A DNA stretch of 64,000 nt from a bacterium HR40 (GTDB taxonomy: Bacteria; Pseudomonadota; Alphaproteobacteria; Geminicoccales; Geminicoccaceae). Of the stretch, positions 100-20,242 are shown piece by piece. A model generated the notes under the pieces. That model made no database searches. It saw only the letters and a program-made list of their open reading frames with translations, and was not told the DNA's origin. Every line of letters starts with the position of its first letter. Positions within the stretch are counted from its first letter, which is position 1. The position numbers and the translations under genes were made by a program. The stretch is from positions 124,001 through 188,000 of the forward strand of contig BEIQ01000005.1 of the NCBI GenBank assembly GCA_002898275.1, given 5' to 3'.

Positions 100-2348
100 C
101 GCGCGCGCAACCCGTGGATCTCGGCCAACGGCTCTTCGACGGTGGCGAGACCATCGATCTCGTGGCGGTCTTCCGCATCCTGTGGCGACGCAAATGGTTG
201 GTGCTCGCGTTCGCGCTCCTGGGTGCGGTGGCGGCGAGCCTCTTCGCCCTGCAGCTGACCCCCACCTACACCGCCACCGTGACCCTGATGTTCGACCCGC
301 GTCAGCCGAACTACGGCAATCTCGAGGAGGTGGTGAGCGGTCTGCCGAAGGACGCCCCGGTGATGGCGACCCAGATCCGGCTGCTGCAGTCGACCGCCTT
401 CCACGCCCGAGTGATGGAGGATCTCAAGCTCTTCGAGGATCCCGAGTTCAATCCCTTCGTCGCGCTGCCGGAGGGAACGGCACCGGTGGTGCCGCGGGAA
501 GGCCTCGAGAAACTCCTCTCCTTCGTTCCGCGCGACTGGCTCGTGGCGCTCGGCCTCGTCCCCGAGCCGCGGCCGCTGCTCGAGAGCGAGGTGGCCCTGC
601 GGGCGCGCGAGATAGCGCTTCGGCTCTTCGCCGCGTCGATCGAGATCACCGCCGACCAGTCCTATGTGTTCCAGCTCTCCTTCACCTCGCAGGATCCGCA
701 GAAGGCGGCGCTCGTCGCCAACCGCATCGCCGAGATGTTCGTGGACGACCAGCTCAAGAGCAAGCTCGTCACCACCACCCGGGTCAATGCCTGGCTCGAG
801 GAACGGCTTGCTACCCTCAAGGACGAGGTGGCGCGGGCGGAAGCGGAGGTGCAACGTTTCCGGGTGGAGCACAATCTGGTCACGGCCAGCAGCGAACAGG
901 GGCCGACCCTCTCCGACCAGGAGCTCGCCGATCTCAACCGCGAACTGATCGTCGCCCGCGCCCAGCTGGCGGAGCGGCAGGCGCGGTTGCGCGCCATGCA
1001 GGAGGCGCGCGCCCGCGGTGGCCTCGACTCGGTGCCGGAGGTGGCCGCCTCGCCGGTGATCTTGAATCTGCGCGCGCAGGAGGCGCAGCTCGCCCGCCAG
1101 GAGGCGGAGCTCTCCGGCCTCTATGGCGAGAAGCATCCGCGCATGCTGCAGCTGCAGCGCGAGAAGGAGGAACTGCGGGGGAAGATCGCAGCCGAGCTGG
1201 CTCGCGTCGCCCAGACCCTCGAGAATGAAGTGCGGGCGACGGCAGCGCGGGTGGCGGCGCTCGAGGCGCAGCTGTCGGGGGTGAAGGCGCGGACCGCAGT
1301 CAATCGCGAGGCCGAAGTGCGCCTGCGGGAGCTCGAGCGCCAGGCGGAGACCAGCCGCCAGCTCTACGAGGCCTTCCTGCAGCGCTACAAGGAGACGCGG
1401 GAGCAGCAGGAGATCGTGCAGCCGGACGTCCACATCGTCGCCAAGGCGAGCGTACCCACTGCACCGAGTTCCCCTGGCCCGCAGCTGTTCGGGGCGGCCG
1501 GCTTCGGCCTGTTCTTCGTGATCGGGGCCTTTGTCGCGCTGTTTCGCGACCGTCTCGATCGGACGCTGCGGAGCGCCAAGGAGGTGGAGACCCTGCTCGG
1601 CCTGCCGACCCTTGCCCGCATGCCGATTTTGAAACTCAAGCGCGGGATGACCCCGCACCGCTATCTCATCGAGAAACCGCTGTCGGCCTATGCCGAGTCG
1701 ATCCGCGCCGTCTACACCAGCCTCAAACTCGGCAGTGCCGATCGGCCGCCCAAGGTGGTGCTCGTCACCTCGGCCCTGCCGGAGGAGGGAAAGACCACCC
1801 TCGCGGTGAGCCTCGCCACCTTCGCCGCGCGCTCGCAGCGACGGGTGGTGCTGATCGATCTCGATCTGCGCCACCCCAATGTGCATCGCACCCTCGGTTG
1901 GCAGGTTTCGGCAGGCCTCGTGGAATATCTCGCCGGCGAGCGCACCCTCGAGGAGGTGATCTGCCACGATCTCGAGAGCGGGGTGCATTTCCTGCCGGTC
2001 AAGGCGCAGACCACCAATCCCACCGACCTGCTCGAGAGTGCGCGGCTGCGCGAGACCATCGACCGGCTCGCCAGCCAGTACGATCTCGTGGTGGTGGACA
2101 CGGCTCCCCTCGGCAGTGTGACCGACGGCAAGCTCGCGGCCCTGCTCGCCGACAAGGTGGTGTTCGCGATCCGCTGGGGGGCGACCGACGAGGCGGCTGC
2201 GGTCGACAGCGTGCAGGCGCTCAGGGAAATCGGCATCGAGCCGGCGGGCGTCGTCTTCACCATGGTCGATGTCAAGAAACACGCCCAGTACGGCTACGGT
2301 GACATCGGCCGCTACTACGGCCGGACCACCAAATATTACGTCGACTGA
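96..2348 (+). CDS. Wzc-type polysaccharide co-polymerase / bacterial tyrosine autokinase
   Basis: This is a 750-residue inner-membrane protein that controls chain length and export of exopolysaccharide by cycles of tyrosine autophosphorylation. A Wzz domain comes first, with a membrane helix at about residues 30-52, a long periplasmic coiled coil (about 220-440) and a second helix near 465-487. The cytoplasmic BY-kinase domain follows, with Walker A EEGKTT around Lys566, Walker A' IDLDLRHP around Asp588/Asp590 and Walker B VVVDTAP near Asp668. The last 22 residues contain six tyrosines, the usual autophosphorylation cluster. Length is typical of fused Wzc proteins (about 700-750). A GAGGGA sequence precedes the ATG. 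The 3' end overlaps the convergent GntR gene by 13 bp. Other surface-polysaccharide genes lie at the far right of the window. Confidence 0.93.
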   Translation: MTRAQPVDLGQRLFDGGETIDLVAVFRILWRRKWLVLAFALLGAVAASLFALQLTPTYTATVTLMFDPRQPNYGNLEEVVSGLPKDAPVMATQIRLLQSTAFHARVMEDLKLFEDPEFNPFVALPEGTAPVVPREGLEKLLSFVPRDWLVALGLVPEPRPLLESEVALRAREIALRLFAASIEITADQSYVFQLSFTSQDPQKAALVANRIAEMFVDDQLKSKLVTTTRVNAWLEERLATLKDEVARAEAEVQRFRVEHNLVTASSEQGPTLSDQELADLNRELIVARAQLAERQARLRAMQEARARGGLDSVPEVAASPVILNLRAQEAQLARQEAELSGLYGEKHPRMLQLQREKEELRGKIAAELARVAQTLENEVRATAARVAALEAQLSGVKARTAVNREAEVRLRELERQAETSRQLYEAFLQRYKETREQQEIVQPDVHIVAKASVPTAPSSPGPQLFGAAGFGLFFVIGAFVALFRDRLDRTLRSAKEVETLLGLPTLARMPILKLKRGMTPHRYLIEKPLSAYAESIRAVYTSLKLGSADRPPKVVLVTSALPEEGKTTLAVSLATFAARSQRRVVLIDLDLRHPNVHRTLGWQVSAGLVEYLAGERTLEEVICHDLESGVHFLPVKAQTTNPTDLLESARLRETIDRLASQYDLVVVDTAPLGSVTDGKLAALLADKVVFAIRWGATDEAAAVDSVQALREIGIEPAGVVFTMVDVKKHAQYGYGDIGRYYGRTTKYYVD

Positions 2349-10069: not shown

Positions 10070-10864
10070 TCACATGTAACCGGCAGCGCGCAGGCGCTCG
10101 AAACTGTCTTCGGCCTCGTGGTCCATCGCGCGGCCGGCACGCTCGGGAATGCGAGTCGCCTCGAGCTCGGCGATGATCTCGTCGAGGGTGCTGGCCGTGC
10201 TCGGCACCGGGAAGGTGATATCCATATCGCCGAGTGAACGATAACGCTTACCGTCTTTGGAAAAATACAGATCTATGACAGGAATTCCTTCTCTCTTCGT
10301 ATAACGCCAAATGTCGACCTCGGTCCAGTGCAGGATCGGATGGACCCGAACATGGGTACCGGGCGGGAAATCCGTCATGTACTGATTCCAGAACTCAGGA
10401 GGCTGATCTTTCATGTTCCAGGAATTGTCCTCGCCGCGGGGGCTGAAGTAGCGTTCCTTGGCGCGGAGTGCCTCTTCGTCGCGCCGGATGCCAGCGATCA
10501 GACCCCGAAAGCCATACTTGCGGATCGCGTTCTGCAGCCCGAGAGTCTTGCGGGCGGCGGCACGCGCCGCCGGTGGCAGGGTGGGGTCGACCTCCTCGAT
10601 CGGTGGGCATTCCTCGCGGATGAATCGCAGCCCCCACTCCTTCGCGTAACGGTCGCGGAAGGCGTACATTTCGGGGAACTTGCGCCCGGTGTCGACGTGG
10701 ATCACCGGAAACGGCACATGGCCGAAGAAGGCCTTGCGGGCGAGCCACAGGACGACGTTGCTGTCCTTGCCGAGCGACCACAGGATGGCGAGCCGGTCGA
10801 GCTTGGCGAAGGCCTCGCGCAGCACGTAGATGCTCTCGGCCTCGAGCTCGTCGAGATGATTCAT
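10070..10864 (-). CDS. cysD: Sulfate adenylyltransferase small subunit CysD
   Basis: This is a 264-residue PP-loop ATP sulfurylase subunit that adenylates sulfate using ATP, driven by the CysN GTPase. The PP-loop [10 protein letters not shown] lies near residue 30, with the family motifs [31 protein letters not shown] and the C-terminal DMDITFPV. The length is somewhat below the E. coli protein (302). AAGAGGT precedes the ATG. Its TGA overlaps a possible GTG of cysN. It is first in a cysD-cysNC operon with no reductase gene in the window, so PAPS could feed either assimilation or sulfation. A terminator and a Cys-containing short ORF sit just upstream and suggest regulation by attenuation. 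Confidence 0.94.
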
Positions 10865-10909
10865 CGCGGGGACCTCTTGCGGAAGACCGTGCAGGCTGGA
10901 GCAGGAGCG

Positions 10910-10934
10910 AAAAAACACGGGCCCAAGGCCCGTG
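10910..10934 (-). terminator. Rho-independent terminator in the cysD leader
   Basis: Read on the minus strand, CACGGGCC and GGCCCGTG form a perfect 8-bp stem with a 3-nt loop, followed by six T residues. Only 45 bp separate the T-tract from the cysD ATG. That is hardly room for a full promoter plus Shine-Dalgarno sequence, so transcription of cysD probably has to read through this hairpin. Confidence 0.85.
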
Positions 10935-10944
10935 CCTTGCCGAT

Positions 10945-11127
10945 CTAACGCAGCGGCAGGCGGGTTTCGACCTCCTTGTGCGGTGCACCATGGTCGCAGC
11001 CGCCTGGCGTGCACCATTGCCACACCGGGGGACGCGTACGGCCGCCTCGGGACCCTCTCGCGCCTTCCAGCTCGGCCCGGGACGGACGCCATCCCGCCCA
11101 GCCCTGCCGCGGCTGGTCGCCGGGCAT
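10945..11127 (-). CDS. Short ORF upstream of cysD, possible Cys-containing leader peptide
   Basis: This 60-codon ORF begins 22 bp after the methyltransferase stop behind a good Shine-Dalgarno (AAGGACGGGAG) and ends with TAG eleven bases before the terminator stem. Its last 26 residues can also start at a GTG (11025). They contain two cysteines (WCTPGGCDHG) and end in KEVETRLPLR. The TGC codons lie at 11011-11013 and 10996-10998. A translated Cys-containing ORF just ahead of an intrinsic terminator and the sulfate-activation genes fits a leader peptide. It could equally be a small protein or a spurious ORF; there is no family assignment. Confidence 0.35.
   Translation of the reverse strand: MPGDQPRQGWAGWRPSRAELEGARGSRGGRTRPPVWQWCTPGGCDHGAPHKEVETRLPLR
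10983..11017. repeat. Pair of 9-bp direct repeats in the cysD leader
   Basis: GTGCACCAT occurs at 10983-10991 and again at 11009-11017, 26 bp apart. The first copy is part of the palindrome GGTGCACC. They lie within the short ORF and could bind a regulator, but no known binding motif is recognised. Confidence 0.4.
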
Positions 11128-13240: not shown

Positions 13241-14074
13241 ATGGAGGAGCGATTCGCCGAGACAGCGAGGGGATCGTCTCAGGGGTTGGACATGGCGGCC
13301 GGGGAGGGCGAGAGCCCGGCCGGGCCAGGACGCGAACCCTTCTCCGAGGCAGAGGCCGAGGAATTCGCCCGGCTGTTCAGGAAATGGCGTCGGGGCCTCG
13401 CGTCTCTCGCCCCCTTGCTGCAGCGCATCGCCCCGCTCGCGGCGCGCGCGGTGCTCGGCGCGCCCGCGACCGCCAGCGGCGCAATGGCGGGACTTCTCGG
13501 CGAGGAGGAATCCTTCGCCGCCGAGCTCGAGGAGGAAGGAGGCGGCGGGTTCGAATCCGGGGAGGAAGAGGGGATGCTGGCCGAGGACAGCGGGGAGACG
13601 GGAAAAGACGCTGGACCGCTCTATGGCTCGGTGGGTGACGCTGCGGTCCTCGCCGAATGGCTGGCGGCTGCCGCTGCCCTGGCCGAGAGCGAGGAAGAGG
13701 CAGCCGGGCTCATCGGTGGCGTCACCATCCACATCCTCGGTCCCGGACCGGTCGAGATCCGCCGCATGACGCCGCTTCTCGTGGAACGTGCCGTGCGGCT
13801 CGCCCGGGTGTTGCGCCGTTCACCTCGCACCCGGCCGCTTTTGCCCGTGGTCGGCGACATCGTCGGTACGACTGCCAAGACCCTCGCCCGCGCTGCCGCT
13901 CGGGGCCAGCGCCCGGGTCCGCGCGCGGCGCTGCGCACCATGGCCCGACAGACCGCGCGCACCCTCGCCGACCCGAGCCGGATCGCGCGGGCCCTCGCTC
14001 GCAACCGTGTGCTCGGCCGACGCATGTTCCGGGGCAGCCCGATGCGCCGGCGGATCCTCGCTGCCGAGCGCTGA
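13241..14074 (+). CDS. Hypothetical protein, acidic N-terminus and Arg-rich C-terminus (paralogue 1)
   Basis: This is a 277-residue protein of unknown function. Residues 1-125 are strongly acidic (runs of Glu and Asp with Gly), with a hydrophobic stretch near residue 60 ([18 protein letters not shown]). The remainder is Ala-rich and very basic. A short beta-like segment ([16 protein letters not shown]) precedes the C-terminal module [14 protein letters not shown]...AARGQRPGP...[12 protein letters not shown]. The same module recurs in the next gene, so the two are tandem paralogues. The ATG at 13241 is chosen because GGAGG lies seven bases before it; a second ATG at 13211 lacks a site. There is no signal peptide. 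It is first of a co-directional block ending at a LuxR-type regulator. Confidence 0.75.
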
Positions 14075-14104
14075 ATCACCCCCCTGCCGCCAAGGAGAGG
14101 CAGC

Positions 14105-14740
14105 ATGTACGAAGTCGAGATGGAAGACGAGATGTTCGATCTCGAGGACCCGCTCCTAGAGGGCGATCCCTTCCTGGGCGGTGTGCTCGGAGCCTTGAGC
14201 GGACTTCTGGGCGAGGAGGAACTGTTGGGCGAGGACGAACTCGGCGAAGGCGAAGCCTATGCCGACGGGCTCGGTGAGGCCGAGGCCGAGGTCTTGATGG
14301 AGCTGCTCGTCGATCAGATCGCCGAGAGCGAGAGCGAGGAAGAGGCCGACCAGTTCCTCCCCATCTTCGCGGCCCTCGCGCCGCTCGCGGTCAAGGCCGC
14401 AGGTGCCCTCGCCCCGGTGGCGGCACGGGTGGCCAAGCGGGTGGTGCCCCAGCTCGCCCGCGGTGTCGTCTCGATGGGCCGCCGGATGATGCGTTCCCCG
14501 GCCGGTCGGCAGGCGGTGCGGGCCCTGCCGACGATCGCCAAGGGGGCGGCCCGCGATGTGCTGAAGACCGCGGCACGCGGTCAGCCGGTCGGACCGGCCC
14601 TCGTCGGCCGTGCCCTCGCCCGGCAGACCGCCCGGGTGTTGCGCGATCCCGGACGGCGTCGCCTCTGCCTGCGCCGCTCCCGGCGGATCGTGCAGGCGGT
14701 CAAACCGCGGGTGGCGCGCGCCCTCGCATCCACCGTCTAA
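14105..14740 (+). CDS. Hypothetical protein, acidic N-terminus and Arg-rich C-terminus (paralogue 2)
   Basis: This is a 211-residue protein of unknown function. It starts MYEVEMEDEMFDLED and stays acidic for about 80 residues, then turns into a hydrophobic and basic amphipathic region (FAALAPLAVKAAGALAPVAA) and an Arg-rich tail. The C-terminal segment AARGQPVGPALVGRALARQT with ARVLRDP matches the module of the preceding gene ([20 protein letters not shown]). The sharp split of charge, near-absence of Cys and helix-forming composition suggest a self-associating or membrane- or nucleic-acid-binding protein, but that is inference. A clear Shine-Dalgarno (AAGGAGAGG) precedes the ATG. The gap to the previous gene is 30 bp. 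Confidence 0.75.
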   Translation: MYEVEMEDEMFDLEDPLLEGDPFLGGVLGALSGLLGEEELLGEDELGEGEAYADGLGEAEAEVLMELLVDQIAESESEEEADQFLPIFAALAPLAVKAAGALAPVAARVAKRVVPQLARGVVSMGRRMMRSPAGRQAVRALPTIAKGAARDVLKTAARGQPVGPALVGRALARQTARVLRDPGRRRLCLRRSRRIVQAVKPRVARALASTV

Positions 14741-14764
14741 CGCGGAGGCGGGGAGGCACGGGCG

Positions 14765-16099
14765 GTGTCCGGACCCGGGTCGATGCTCCTCGGGAAGGGC
14801 CAGGGGGTGCGGCTGCGCTTCGCCAGGCCGCCTTCCCCGGCCATCCCCGAGCTCGCCCACTGGCTGGACAGCCAGGCGGTGAACGCGGCGCGGGCCGCCG
14901 TCATGATCCGCCCTTTCAGCCGGGACGAATTCGGCACCGATGCCGCCTCCCCCAGCCCCGCCCATCTCGCCGCCGTCAACCGGACGATCGCCAAGCTGCG
15001 CCATCTGCTCGTGGGTGCCGCCCGCACCCAGGCGAAGGCCGGTGGCGCTGCCCTCGCTGCGCCGAGCCGCGACACCCTGGACGACGCCAGTCGGGCGAAG
15101 GAGGCGGAGACCCTGGCGGTCGCTGCGATCGAGAAGGTCTGGCAATTCTACCGCGACATCTTCGAGCAGCGCACCACGCGCTTCGCCGCCCGGCTGCTCG
15201 CTTGCGACCGCATCGCCCTCGACTGCTACCAATACGTCTACGGCGGGCTCGGGCGGGCGCGCTCGATCCCCTCTCCGGCACCCTTTTCCTACATGGAATC
15301 CGGCAGCGGACCCGCCACCTTCCGCCGGGCCGTCCCGCTGTCCCGGCTCGGCCGGCTGCCCAACCCCTTTCCCTTGGTCAAGCTCCCCTATCACCGGCTG
15401 GTGGCACCCTGGACGCTCGGTGCCGTGCCGCACGAGGTCGGCCACAATCTGCAGGCGGATCTCGGTCTGTGGCAGACCATCCCGCGTCGTTTCGCCGAGG
15501 TGCTGGCGCGCGACGGCGTTCCCTCGCCGGTGGTGCGGATCTGGATCCGCTGGCACAAGGAGATTTTCGCCGATCTCATCGGCGTGCTCCTGATCGGGCC
15601 TGCTTTCGTCCATTCGCTGATGGACGTGGTGGGGAGATCGCCGGAAGCGGTGACCGCCTTCTCACCGGCGGCGGTGCACCCGACTCCCTTCCTGCGCACC
15701 CTGCTCGATCTCGAGTTGCTCGCGCGCATGGAGTTCGCACCGGAGGCTGCGGCCCTGCGGCAGGCCTGGCTCGCCCTCCATCCGCCGGCACGCGCCCGTG
15801 CCCGCATGCCGGCGGCGTTGCTTCACAGCTTCGAGCGGGCGTCCCGGCGAGTGGTGGAGATCGTCGCCTTCACCCCCTATCCCGAACTCGGCGACCGCGC
15901 CCTCGCCGAGGTGGTGAGCTTCCGCCGCCAGGACCTCGCGGTGGCCGGGGAAGCGGCGGAGCGACTGGCGCGCGGCGAGGATCCGGGGATCGTTCCCGAA
16001 CGTTTCCTCATCGTCGCCGCCCGCCTCGCCCTGCGGCGCCGGCACGCGCCACCCGGCCGCATCGCCCAGCATTTCTTCGACGCGCTCGGCAGGAGATGA
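14765..16099 (+). CDS. HEXXH zinc metallopeptidase-like protein, unknown family
   Basis: This is a 444-residue protein without a signal peptide. It has HEVGH at residues 223-227 and, 39 residues later, WHKEIFAD with Glu266 and Asp270. HEXXH plus a downstream E-x3-D in a helix is the gluzincin pattern (compare NExxSD of thermolysin), so zinc binding by His223, His227 and Glu266 with Glu224 as catalytic base is likely. The N-terminal 200 residues are helical and of unknown fold. GTG is the start, with GGGGAGG eight bases upstream. It is third in the block and only 24 bp after paralogue 2, whose charge-split proteins could be its substrates (speculative). Confidence 0.75.
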   Translation: MSGPGSMLLGKGQGVRLRFARPPSPAIPELAHWLDSQAVNAARAAVMIRPFSRDEFGTDAASPSPAHLAAVNRTIAKLRHLLVGAARTQAKAGGAALAAPSRDTLDDASRAKEAETLAVAAIEKVWQFYRDIFEQRTTRFAARLLACDRIALDCYQYVYGGLGRARSIPSPAPFSYMESGSGPATFRRAVPLSRLGRLPNPFPLVKLPYHRLVAPWTLGAVPHEVGHNLQADLGLWQTIPRRFAEVLARDGVPSPVVRIWIRWHKEIFADLIGVLLIGPAFVHSLMDVVGRSPEAVTAFSPAAVHPTPFLRTLLDLELLARMEFAPEAAALRQAWLALHPPARARARMPAALLHSFERASRRVVEIVAFTPYPELGDRALAEVVSFRRQDLAVAGEAAERLARGEDPGIVPERFLIVAARLALRRRHAPPGRIAQHFFDALGRR

Positions 16100-16103
16100 C
16101 GTC

Positions 16104-17252
16104 ATGGGTCCGATCCTCCCCACGACTTCGACGACAGGTGAAGAACGGCTCGCTTGGCTCGAGCGTACCCTCGCCCAAGTGCTCGGCGGTGGCCCGGCCG
16201 GGAGTCTGCTGCGCCGCGATCGGAGGATCTCGGATCTCTCGCGGCACGAGCTCGAAGGGCTCGAGGCGCAGCTCCGGCGCCGCTTCCGGCGCACCCTCGA
16301 CCCCCGGACCGGGGCGGTGCGGTTCGAGCCGGTTGGCCCGGCGGCGGGCTTCGCTGCCGGTCGGACCCGCGACGAGATGCTGGCGCGGCGGGCCCGCGAG
16401 TTGCTGCCGGTGGTCCGTCACGCCCTCGAGGACATCGATCCCGCCTTGTGCCGACCGGGAGTCTGCGCCGACGACCTCCGTCGCCTGCTCGACCACGTCC
16501 GCACCGATCTCGACGCGCTCGCTTCGGAACTCGAGGGCGAAGCGGTCGGCCCGCTGATCGAGGGCTGGTTCGCCGAATTGCTCGGCGACGAGGAGGGGGG
16601 CCCCGGCCTGTTGGACGAGCTGCGGACCGCGCTCATGGGCGAGGACAGCGTCGAGGACGAACACCAGCTCGCCCTCCTCGATCTGGCCGCGGACATCCTC
16701 GCCGATCTGCGCGAGGCGTGCGAGGGCGTCGATGGCGAGGACGGGCTCGTCGCCTGGGCGGAGCGGGTCGAGCGGTGCGCCGGCCGGATCGCCGATCAGG
16801 CGATCGCCGTGCGCGACCTGCTCGCGGGTTTGGGCATCGGCGCCTGCGAACTCGAGGCCACTCCAGCCGGCCCCCAGGACAAGGCCGGGCCGAGCCTCGC
16901 CGCAGCCCTGCGGGCGGCGGAAGTGGAGCCGCGACGCTTCGAGAAACTCGCCCGCCTCGGCGGCGCCGCCCAGCGACAGCGAGTCCGGAGTGCCGGACGG
17001 TGGCTTCGCACCCTCTGGGGGAACATCGAAGGTAAGGCCATTGCCTCTCGCCTCGGGCTTGCCGGCGAGGCCGCGGAGCAAGCGGCCATGGCGATCGATC
17101 GCCTCGCGCGGCTGATCCTCGCCTTCGAGGACGAAATCCAGAGACCACCTCCCGGGGAGGGCGCTCCGGCGCCTCGGGGTAGCGGATCGCCGCCTCCCGA
17201 GCGGGGCGAAGACCGGCCACCGCCGGCCGAGCAGAGTCCGATGGTCGGGTGA
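16104..17252 (+). CDS. Hypothetical protein of the 13-19 kb block
   Basis: This is a 382-residue, mostly helical acidic protein with no recognised domain, signal peptide or membrane segment. Visible features are a short Arg-rich region near residue 60 (QLRRRFRRTLDP), long amphipathic helices, four cysteines (two close together in LCRPGVCADD near residue 115) and a Pro/Gly/Glu-rich disordered C-terminus of about 35 residues. The ATG lies four bases after the stop of the metallopeptidase gene, with GGAG inside that gene's last codons, so the two are co-translated. The function is unknown. Confidence 0.7.
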   Translation: MGPILPTTSTTGEERLAWLERTLAQVLGGGPAGSLLRRDRRISDLSRHELEGLEAQLRRRFRRTLDPRTGAVRFEPVGPAAGFAAGRTRDEMLARRARELLPVVRHALEDIDPALCRPGVCADDLRRLLDHVRTDLDALASELEGEAVGPLIEGWFAELLGDEEGGPGLLDELRTALMGEDSVEDEHQLALLDLAADILADLREACEGVDGEDGLVAWAERVERCAGRIADQAIAVRDLLAGLGIGACELEATPAGPQDKAGPSLAAALRAAEVEPRRFEKLARLGGAAQRQRVRSAGRWLRTLWGNIEGKAIASRLGLAGEAAEQAAMAIDRLARLILAFEDEIQRPPPGEGAPAPRGSGSPPPERGEDRPPPAEQSPMVG

Positions 17253-17282
17253 GCGGAACGGGAGAGATCAGGAGGAGCGGAG

Positions 17283-18392
17283 ATGGCGTCGCGCGAGGAC
17301 TATTACTCCCTGCTCGGACAGATCGCCGAGGTCCGCTCGCGTCTCGCCGGGCTCGCGGCCGCCCAGCGACCGGGGGATGCGGAGCTGCGGGAGCTGCTCG
17401 CCACCCGGCTCGCCGAGCTCGAGGAGACGCTCACCCATCACCTCGAGGCCACCCGGCCGCCGCCACCCGACGGGGGCGACGCCGAACGGCTCGGCCTCGG
17501 GCCGACAGCCGCCCCCACTCCCGATGCCGTCTTCACCCCGGCCGGGGTGCCGCCCTACGACGAGGCCGTGGTTTCGGAACGGCTCCTGGCGATCGGCGAT
17601 CTCTACTACTGCTATCAGCACGAGCGGCTCGGCGTGTTCCGGGCGGTGCTCAAGCTGCGAGAGCTGTTCCGGGCGGGCACGCTGCGCCTGTCCTCGGGAC
17701 CCGGGGCCTTCGCCCTCTATCGTTTCGACCGCAAGGAGGCGCTGCGCTATACCCGCGCCCAGCGGATGCAGGCCTATCGCCGGGTGCTCGGCTATACCGA
17801 TGCACCGCCGCCTCCCGGAGCGCGCCCCAACGACGCCTTCCACCACTTGTTCACCACCTTCTGCCTGGAAGTGGCGCAGCTGTTCCGCGACAAGCGGGTG
17901 GCGGAGACCATCCGCGGATCGGCGAGCAGCCCGGATCCTTCCTTCGCCAGTGTGGCCGCCGTGCGGCGAGCGGGACTCGACCTGCGCGCCAACCTCAAGC
18001 AGGCCTCCTATGGCGACGTCAATGTGCTGACGATCGAGCTGCTGCAGCTGCTCCGCCAGGCCTTCGCCATCCTCGAGGCCGAGGACGTGCGGCGCCAGTT
18101 CGGGAGCGACAATGCCTGGGACACCCTCGAGGAGGTGCTGCACCGCTATCTGCAGGAGAGACCGGTGGCGTCGCAGCGTTCGCGCATGGGCATGGCCGGC
18201 CGCGAGATCATCCACTGGCTGGCCCGCCCCTTCATCCTCGCCGAGGGCCGCAGCGAGTTCGAAACCCTGGTCACGGCCATCGGCGAATGGGCCGAGGAAT
18301 GGCTCACGAGTGCCCAATCGCTGGGGATCGCACACAGGAGTACGCCGGCCGGCAATGTCGTTCCCTTCCGTCCGCGCCGAGTGGCCTCCTGA
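17283..18392 (+). CDS. Hypothetical protein of the 13-19 kb block
   Basis: This is a 369-residue protein with no recognised family. The N-terminus is a short coiled coil (MASREDYYSLLGQIAEVRSR) followed by a Pro-rich linker (about residues 57-90). The rest is a helical domain rich in aromatic residues (IGDLYYCYQHERLG, FHHLFTTFCLEVAQ, REIIHWLARPFI). There is no transmembrane helix and no obvious catalytic motif. A strong Shine-Dalgarno (AGGAGGAGCGGAG) precedes the ATG, 30 bp after the previous gene. It completes the set of four structural gene types before the regulator. Confidence 0.7.
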   Translation: MASREDYYSLLGQIAEVRSRLAGLAAAQRPGDAELRELLATRLAELEETLTHHLEATRPPPPDGGDAERLGLGPTAAPTPDAVFTPAGVPPYDEAVVSERLLAIGDLYYCYQHERLGVFRAVLKLRELFRAGTLRLSSGPGAFALYRFDRKEALRYTRAQRMQAYRRVLGYTDAPPPPGARPNDAFHHLFTTFCLEVAQLFRDKRVAETIRGSASSPDPSFASVAAVRRAGLDLRANLKQASYGDVNVLTIELLQLLRQAFAILEAEDVRRQFGSDNAWDTLEEVLHRYLQERPVASQRSRMGMAGREIIHWLARPFILAEGRSEFETLVTAIGEWAEEWLTSAQSLGIAHRSTPAGNVVPFRPRRVAS

Positions 18393-18491
18393 GCGGTCGG
18401 CATGCTGGTGTCGATCGTCACATTCGGGTACCGATAGGAGGGCGAGCATCCGACTCGCGAGAGGGGCTGGACACCGGATCGGGAGGAAACG

Positions 18492-18770
18492 ATGCCTGCA
18501 CTGGCCCGGCCGCGGGTGGGCCCGCCGCCGGATCCGGCATCGGGCGAGGCTGCCTGGGACGATGCCCTCGCGATCCCGGAGCTGAGCCCGCGCGAACTCG
18601 AGATCGCGCGGCTCGTGGCCCGTGGCTATCCGAACAAGACGGTGGCCGCGGTGCTCGATCTGAGCCCGTGGACCGTCGCCACCTACCTCCGGCGGATCTA
18701 CATGAAGTTCGGTGTACGCTGCCGGGCGGCGATGGTGCGCGAGCTCTGCCGGCGCGGGCTCGAACGCTGA
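18492..18770 (+). CDS. Single-domain LuxR-type HTH regulator
   Basis: This is a 92-residue protein consisting of a GerE/LuxR helix-turn-helix (about residues 29-92) with the family signature LSPRELEIARLVARGYPNKT, then a VATYLRRIYMKFGV recognition region. About 28 Pro/Ala-rich residues precede it, and there is no receiver or autoinducer domain. Such stand-alone HTH proteins usually act on local promoters. GGGAGGAAACG lies before the ATG. It follows the unknown block after 99 bp and probably regulates it, which is inferred from position. Confidence 0.85.
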   Translation: MPALARPRVGPPPDPASGEAAWDDALAIPELSPRELEIARLVARGYPNKTVAAVLDLSPWTVATYLRRIYMKFGVRCRAAMVRELCRRGLER

Positions 18771-18839: not shown

Positions 18840-19361
18840 TTGGCTGCTGCTTTTTCGTTTCGCTTCGAGCCGGCGCTCGTGGCGCTTGGCGCCAATCTCG
18901 GCGACCGCGCCGCCACCCTCGAGGCAGCGGTGAGCGAGCTCGCCCGCGAGGTCGGTCCCATTCTCGCCCGCTCGCCGTGGATCGAGACCGAGGCAGTGCG
19001 GCTGCCCGACGATCCGCTGCCGCAACCGCCCTATCTCAACGGGGTGGTGCTCGTCGACTGTCCGCTTTCCCCTCGCGAGTTGCTCGCCCGGCTGCTTCTC
19101 ATCGAGCGCCGGCTGGGACGAGACCGCAGCCGCGAGACCCGGCGGTGGCAGCCGCGTATCCTCGACCTCGACCTGCTCGCCTTGGGCGAACGCGTGGGCG
19201 AGGAGCCAGGCCTCGTCCTGCCGCATCCGCGATTGCACGAACGCCTGTTCGTGCTCGAGCCGCTCGTCGCCATCTGGCCCGACTGGCGCCATCCGCGACT
19301 CGGGAAGAGCGCCGCGGAGCTGCTTTCAAGGCTGCGCGGGCAGATGGAAAGCCGCCGGTAA
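18840..19361 (+). CDS. folK: 2-amino-4-hydroxy-6-hydroxymethyldihydropteridine diphosphokinase (HPPK)
   Basis: This is a 173-residue enzyme transferring pyrophosphate from ATP to 6-hydroxymethyl-dihydropterin in folate synthesis. The conserved start VALGANLGDR, YLNGVV, the signature RWQPRILDLDLL and PHPRLHERLFVLEPL are all present. No ATG is near; the TTG at 18840 has GGAGG upstream and begins the conserved domain. The 3' end overlaps folP on the opposite strand by 36 bp, so the two folate genes face each other. Confidence 0.93.
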   Translation: MAAAFSFRFEPALVALGANLGDRAATLEAAVSELAREVGPILARSPWIETEAVRLPDDPLPQPPYLNGVVLVDCPLSPRELLARLLLIERRLGRDRSRETRRWQPRILDLDLLALGERVGEEPGLVLPHPRLHERLFVLEPLVAIWPDWRHPRLGKSAAELLSRLRGQMESRR

Positions 19362-20198
19362 TGGTCGTCCCAGCCGTTGGGCGAGCTCGAGAAAGCGGCG
19401 CATCAGCCGGACATCGTGGGTGCGGACCATGCTCGCCCCCTTCTCGATGGCATCGAGGGCGAGCAGTTGCGAGAGGGCGTCGCGTTCCGTCGGATCGGCG
19501 CCGATAAAGCCCTTGCGCGACACGCCCACCACCAGCGGAAACGGTCGCAGGTGTTCCACCAGCCGTGGCAGCTCGCGCAGGAGGCGGAAGCTGTCGGCGG
19601 GATCGAGAGAGACGAAGCGTCCCCATCCCGGATCGAGCAGCAGGAGGTCCTCCCGCACCCCGGCGCGTAGCGCCACTTCCGCTCGTCGCAAGAGGAAATC
19701 GCCGATCTCGGCGATGATGTCCCGATAGTGGGCCGGCCGGTCGGTGACATGCGGCAAGGGGGCATCCTTGGCGTGCATGAGGACCAGGGCCGCTCGATGC
19801 TCGGCCACCACTCGGGCGAGCTCGGGATCGGCCCGCAGGGCGGAGACATCGTTGATCATCACCGCCCCGAGGGCGAGACAGCGGGCAGCGGTGGCCGCGC
19901 GGTAGGTGTCGATCGACAGGGGCATGGCCGCAGCGAGGGCTTCCACCACCGGGAGAATGCGCCGCTGCTCCTCTTCCGCGGGAATCGGGCGGCTGCCGGG
20001 AGCGGTCGATTCCCCCCCGATATCGACGATGGCCGCCCCCTCCTCGCGCAGCCTGCGGCCGGCGGCGATCGCCTCGCCGCGTTCGAGATAGCGGCCCCCG
20101 TCGCTGAAGGAATCGGGGGTGACGTTGAGGATCCCCATGATCCAGGGGGGTGGGCCACCCAGGAGCGCGGAAAGCCCGGTCGGGGGAGCGTCAGCCAT
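19326..20198 (-). CDS. folP: Dihydropteroate synthase
   Basis: This is a 290-residue TIM-barrel enzyme joining the pterin product of FolK to p-aminobenzoate. Clear motifs are MGILNVTPDSFSDGG, DIGGESTAPGSRP, SIDTYRA, MINDVSALR, GVSRKGFIG and RTHDVRL. The usual DPGIGFGK loop reads DPGWGRFVSLDP, a marked change at the pterin-binding loop, so this is a divergent member of the family. The first ATG before the conserved region is used. It converges on folK with a 36-bp overlap. Confidence 0.88.
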   Translation of the reverse strand: MADAPPTGLSALLGGPPPWIMGILNVTPDSFSDGGRYLERGEAIAAGRRLREEGAAIVDIGGESTAPGSRPIPAEEEQRRILPVVEALAAAMPLSIDTYRAATAARCLALGAVMINDVSALRADPELARVVAEHRAALVLMHAKDAPLPHVTDRPAHYRDIIAEIGDFLLRRAEVALRAGVREDLLLLDPGWGRFVSLDPADSFRLLRELPRLVEHLRPFPLVVGVSRKGFIGADPTERDALSQLLALDAIEKGASMVRTHDVRLMRRFLELAQRLGRPLPAAFHLPAQP

Positions 20199-20242
20199 GC
20201 GCGTGCCCTCTCTCGTCGTGACCTCCGCTTGCGTCCGCCGGC

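Follow-up and report, generated by a model that had tools for sequence, protein, structure and literature searches.

The block studied here lies at positions 13241-18770 of a 64-kb stretch of a contig from bacterium HR40 (BEIQ01000005.1), the whole stretch that was read being called the window. It comprises six open reading frames (ORFs), all confirmed and all in one direction. It represents a compact, deeply divergent subtype of a gene system that occurs widely and patchily among bacteria. The constant core of this system consists of one or several charge-split proteins, with acidic heads and Arg-rich tails, of a metallopeptidase carrying HExxH and ExxAD motifs and of a helical protein, usually together with a LuxR-type regulator. 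In the window, with all genes on the + strand, the charge-split proteins are encoded by gene 1 (13241-14074; 277 amino acids (aa)) and gene 2 (14105-14740; 211 aa), the predicted zinc metallopeptidase by gene 3 (14765-16099; 444 aa, GTG start) and the all-helical core protein by gene 5 (17283-18392; 369 aa). Gene 4 (16104-17252) encodes another helical protein, of 382 aa, and gene 6 (18492-18770) a stand-alone LuxR-type helix-turn-helix (HTH) protein of 92 aa. Successive genes are separated by 30, 24, 4, 30, and 99 bp, and a purine-rich stretch resembling a Shine-Dalgarno sequence is found 5′ of every start (GGAGG, AAGGAGAGG, GGGGAGG, AGGAGA, AGGAGG, and GGAGGAAA for genes 1 to 6). Scans for promoters, terminators and Rfam families gave nothing useful. 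The GC content of the block is 0.715, against 0.694 for the window, with third-position values of 0.81-0.87; since this composition is like that of the surroundings, it gives no sign of a recent import. A preliminary description, made from the sequence alone, had proposed six co-directional genes with ribosome sites, short gaps and a last gene set 99 bp apart, among them tandem paralogues with acidic heads and Arg-rich tails, an HEXXH protein and a closing stand-alone LuxR HTH, and had found no nameable family for the first five genes. On all these points it agrees with the data given here: no significant match to genes 1-5 was obtained in Pfam, NCBIfam, PHROGs or PADLOC.

There is good support both for the linkage of the gene set and for its lack of a known match. 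When gene 3 was used to scan the genomes of about 85,000 species, 74 loci were obtained, to which 3 were added from the window's own family, and clustering of the ORFs around these loci allowed a conserved order to be read. In the canonical loci, one to three charge-split genes are followed by gene 3, by a gene for a protein of ~600 aa, often by a small variable gene, and then by gene 5, a gene for a ~280 aa protein and a DUF4438 gene. A LuxR regulator is present at a variable position, and a trypsin-fold protease is often encoded as well. A relative of gene 5 follows gene 3 within 4.5 kb, in the same orientation, in each of the 64 loci whose downstream sequence was long enough (64/64). Because these 64 loci were chosen by gene 3 alone, an independent check of the linkage matters. 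Such a check is provided by two surveys, where the profiles of genes 3 and 5 matched the identical 3 genomes among 289 of the class and the identical 4 genomes among 31 of the family. Under independence, these coincidences would have probabilities of ~2.5e-7 and ~3e-5, respectively, which are rough values as some of the genomes are related. Homologues scattered without conserved linkage, named beforehand in the preliminary description as the outcome that would speak against it, are thus not what the surveys showed, and there is strong support for the idea of a single system that belongs to none of the system families tested. The co-occurrence in question holds for the HEXXH protein, the 369-residue protein and the charge-split family; it does not extend to the 382-residue product of gene 4, which is not universal.

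The loci are distributed among Pseudomonadota, Cyanobacteriota, Myxococcota, Planctomycetota and Acidobacteriota, with one more in a Desulfuromonas bin; cultivated bacteria, such as Thiocapsa marina, a Corallococcus and a Roseateles, are among the carriers. A maximum-likelihood tree of gene 3 resolves two fully supported clades with long branches between them. The first contains 49 canonical rows, including the relatives from the window's own family. The second, compact, clade groups the window with an Acidobacteriota bin and a Rhodospirillales metagenome bin; the branches of the window and of the Rhodospirillales bin are long, so that the order of branching inside this clade is unsure. In the genome of the window, DUF4438 (PF14505) has no match, a Thermotoga maritima control being positive, and the glutamyl endopeptidase linked to other loci has no relative at threshold. 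In view of these two absences, the window is assigned to a compact subtype made of two charge-split proteins, the peptidase, gene 4, gene 5 and the LuxR protein, whereas its family relatives carry the canonical form. When an empty site was sought in these relatives, the search with flanking genes yielded no usable syntenic position. The existence of two deep subtypes provides an internal control for the essential parts of the system.

The products of genes 1 and 2 are paralogous (38% identity over 83 residues, E 5e-7), and both are net acidic, then strongly cationic, the acidic part of gene 1 covering its first two thirds. Gene 1 has a relative in the compact Acidobacteriota locus L005 (42% over 101 aa, E 1e-19), and relatives of gene 2 are found directly 5′ of the peptidase gene in L005, L017, and L023 (E 3e-18 to 1e-14). 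Across the family, whose members range from about 200 to 450 aa and possess conserved motifs, the charge-split test is passed by 88 of 98 proteins, as compared with 9 of 352 control genes. In most canonical members, an acidic head precedes a cationic region of ~55-60 residues, a short acidic stretch and a cationic tail of ~130-170 residues. Canonical members also have in common a start of the type MdxFExDvmDDL, a DEFfrRLxrG motif and a C-terminal end resembling RrFtlrGPVtItI. Given these counts and motifs, the charge pattern is to be regarded as a conserved trait of the family and not as a peculiarity of one high-GC genome. Near the L005 locus, two more proteins look charge-split, and one with an OmpA domain looks leaderless (1288-2079 (+), 13572-14837 (-), and 15888-16358 (-)).

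In gene 3, an HEVGH motif (H223-H227; window 15431-15445, + strand) is followed by an EIFAD motif (E266-D270; 15560-15574, + strand). H223, E224, H227, E266, and D270 are invariant in all 52 relatives aligned, and owing to this invariance and to the presence of the second motif, the HEXXH sequence is not a chance match. HExxH followed by ExxAD is the pattern of gluzincins, and the motif presumably recalls M48 peptidases; by analogy with gluzincins, E266 would be the probable third zinc ligand. The AlphaFold2 model of gene 3 is confident (pLDDT 90.7). Its residues 137-384 have weak structural matches to the M13 peptidases neprilysin (6svy) and Zmp1 (3zuk), with a Z of 6.3 over 170-183 aligned residues, and Foldseek returned no significant match for the model. 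The protein differs from gluzincins by a long, helical N-terminal part, by the lack of a signal-peptide-like start (as judged by a crude heuristic) and by its sequence: neither gene 3 nor a canonical relative matches a Pfam peptidase, M13 and M48 profiles included, and gene 3 has no credible relative among PDB sequences. 

Gene 4 occupies the position of the canonical ~600 aa protein. Its sole relative was found in L005, the closest compact locus (29%, E 1.5e-5), and a helical, unrelated-looking protein stands at the same position in the Rhodospirillales bin. Homology of gene 4, as a shorter form, to the ~600 aa protein was considered and set aside: the profile comparison was not significant (probability 1.5%, and 0.3% in another comparison), for which reason a positional equivalence only is claimed. 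Gene 5 is all-helical (AlphaFold2 pLDDT 80.6), with no significant match to a PDB fold by Foldseek or to a viral fold; a known fold could not be retained for it, as VIA matches span just residues ~1-68. No credible relative of gene 5 or of the ~600 aa and ~280 aa families was found among PDB sequences. Distant relatives of gene 5 occur in clusters with subtilases and amidases on Burkholderia and Tolypothrix plasmids, the Burkholderia pyrrocinia one being detected with an hhalign probability of 98.6% (E 7e-16). The gene 5 family may thus recur beside proteases more widely. In these plasmid clusters (L085:7618-18836 for Tolypothrix, L087:1686-17426 for B. pyrrocinia), the distant gene 5 relative is accompanied by an S8 peptidase, which replaces the HExxH peptidase, and by peptidoglycan-related or amidase proteins. 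No charge-split protein was recognised there, a number of the neighbouring genes look like paralogues without a family, and the clusters are themselves uncharacterised. Finally, gene 6 belongs to the GerE HTH family (PF00196, E 8.6e-15, over the curated cut-off). A LuxR HTH is present in 55 of 78 loci, on the operon strand in 34 and on the opposite strand in 21.

Canonical loci carry additional genes. One product is a clear DUF4438 protein (2e-53), related to TM1086 (5e-62), the family having no known function. The PDB entries of TM1086, 3n99 and 3dcl, contain 30 and 5 chains, a count that would fit a pentamer. The trypsin-fold protease is, by profile, a glutamyl endopeptidase (1p3c, E 7e-37), with conserved catalytic-type residues and a specificity that is predicted. 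It is encoded in 24 of the 61 loci with long downstream sequence, among the canonical loci as well as in L005. Known glutamyl endopeptidases are secreted, whereas a signal-peptide-like start was seen in none of the 24 locus members. More generally, the same crude heuristic, applied post hoc, detected no signal peptide in the core families tested, the serine protease or 34 in-operon accessory genes. Other linked or nearby genes encode a DUF2272 protein (5e-23) and proteins with weak VanY and M35 matches, under the Pfam cut-offs. A further accessory family has GIY-YIG-like features by its conserved residues only, with no Pfam or PDB match. In a post hoc and crude comparison, the N-termini of the in-operon accessory proteins are more acidic than those of controls (p 8e-6), and acidity is not raised in genes beyond the last core gene (p 0.29). 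Near cyanobacterial loci, two proteins, one weakly VanY-like and one with DUF2272, both start with strongly acidic heads containing Trp or Phe (L028:9410-10222 and L073:14008-14778). In addition, small proteins encoded just 5′ of the serine protease have a common N-terminal motif, LDxLVxxEIxxL (L017:14431-15189, L023, L033, L038, L042, L052, L055, L056, L074, and L077). Similar starts are found in some of the GIY-YIG-like proteins and in one protein of L030; they occur in 13 of 34 accessory genes vs 1 of 228 control genes, a post hoc count in which many of the genes are interrelated. This motif could be a sorting tag.

Known systems were also considered. The core has no PADLOC match to a defence system, gene 6 matching just a CARF-HTH model, via its HTH. 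A phage or tailocin origin was rejected: gene 3 and gene 5 have no relatives in IMG/VR, a gene 5 relative has no match in INPHARED, and neither PHROGs nor viral folds gave a significant match. Within the partial collection of literature that was searched, nothing was found on the gene system and no mention of DUF4438. As far as this partial collection shows, no earlier account of its function seems to exist. A set whose core mostly has no named family, DUF4438 being the sole core member known to Pfam, recurs in fixed order across at least five phyla. Several conserved protein families are added by it, together with what is probably a new zinc-peptidase branch, and it connects proteins of segregated charge with proteases dedicated to them in a way that can be tested.

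Considering these properties, several modes of action may be envisaged. The best, though unproven, reading, which we hold tentatively, is that the charge-split proteins and their helical partners assemble in the cytoplasm, that the peptidase matures this assembly and that, in the fuller loci, leaderless hydrolases are loaded into it. In such a model, the LuxR protein would control the operon. The alternating acidic and cationic blocks of the charge-split proteins would drive their electrostatic association in the cytoplasm, the products of genes 4 and 5 would be structural partners in the protein body, and the metallopeptidase would trim or release the charge-split proteins. In the fuller loci, the assembly would hold leaderless hydrolases in store, to be employed during conflict or upon lysis. 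The compact form of the window would then be a stripped-down assembly, where the cationic tails might be the active or binding part. In favor of this reading, genes 3 and 5 are perfectly linked, charge splitting is conserved and the zinc motifs are invariant within a confident fold. It is also favored by the glutamyl endopeptidase of the 24 loci, the DUF2272 accessory protein, the lack of signal-peptide-like starts, the acidic N-termini of accessory proteins and the lack of viral relatives. Several observations weigh against it. The tests of signal peptides and of N-terminal acidity are crude and post hoc. Moreover, a number of accessory proteins lack an acidic N-terminal part, and no cargo-type gene was found in the window.

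Two negative tests on the tails add to these difficulties, and they bear equally on a second, rather unlikely, explanation. In this case, the system would produce pro-peptides: the acidic heads would neutralise cationic, membrane-active tails until a cut by the metallopeptidase, or by the glutamyl endopeptidase of fuller loci, and the product would be antibacterial or self-lytic. Acidic pro-pieces indeed shield cationic host-defence peptides. Acidic and cationic regions alternate in nearly all members of the family, proteases belong to the locus, and, for most canonical members, cutting in silico at glutamate yields long cationic fragments, of ~55-60 and 130-170 residues. However, if the linked protease processed the tails, glutamate should be avoided in them, and nothing was seen beyond a general charge segregation: Glu-free runs are no longer than Asp-free runs (138 vs 135), and tail glutamate is not lower in loci having the endopeptidase. 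Amphipathicity is barely above that of block-shuffled sequences, exceeding it in just 58 of 99 cases. Furthermore, no export or immunity gene was recognised.

About equally doubtful is a conflict or programmed-death module, in which a cascade of proteolysis, set off by stress or an invader, would lead to death or arrest of the host cell, with a logic akin to that of the peptidase-rich conflict systems of multicellular prokaryotes. Pairs of zincin-like peptidases and small variable peptides, acidic ones included, as well as trypsin-like peptidase cascades, are described in these organisms (Kaur et al., 2020; PMC7159879). These modules are the nearest published idea and serve as a precedent. The present loci likewise combine a zincin and its partner protein with an accessory trypsin-fold glutamyl endopeptidase and are patchily spread, and subtilases and amidases are neighbours of the distant gene 5 relatives. 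On the other hand, no NTPase core (vWA-MoxR, iSTAND or STAND) and no EAD-type component was recognised in the part of the locus proteins that was scanned. The charge-split proteins, of ~200-450 aa and with conserved motifs, also differ from the small variable peptides; no counterpart of genes 3 and 5 could be identified in the published modules, and the core lacks a PADLOC match. A role of the Arg-rich tails in compacting DNA, RNA or polyphosphate, with the acidic heads blocking binding until the peptidase switches it on, is quite improbable: a tail net charge of about +20 to +40 and a regulator with a DNA-binding HTH would fit, but cationic tails are not specific to such a role and no nucleic-acid-binding fold or family was found for genes 1-5.

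Coming back to the cytoplasmic assembly, it may be imagined, with little confidence at present, that it stands for a previously unknown class of bacterial protein assemblies, built from block-charged (polyampholyte) scaffolds and helical partners with a peptidase of their own. The fuller versions would carry leaderless hydrolases as cargo, some of them with acidic N-terminal docking heads. The body so formed would serve for storage or delivery and would have no relationship with contractile injection systems, encapsulins or microcompartments.

Outside the block, a CysD-like protein is encoded at window positions 10070-11092 (-); it scores above the NF003587 cut-off and below that of TIGR02039, and has ~75 additional N-terminal residues. 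Ordinary folate genes flank the block: folK (18840-19361, +) faces a gene at about 19326-20200 (-) that, judging from its sequence, looks like one for dihydropteroate synthase.

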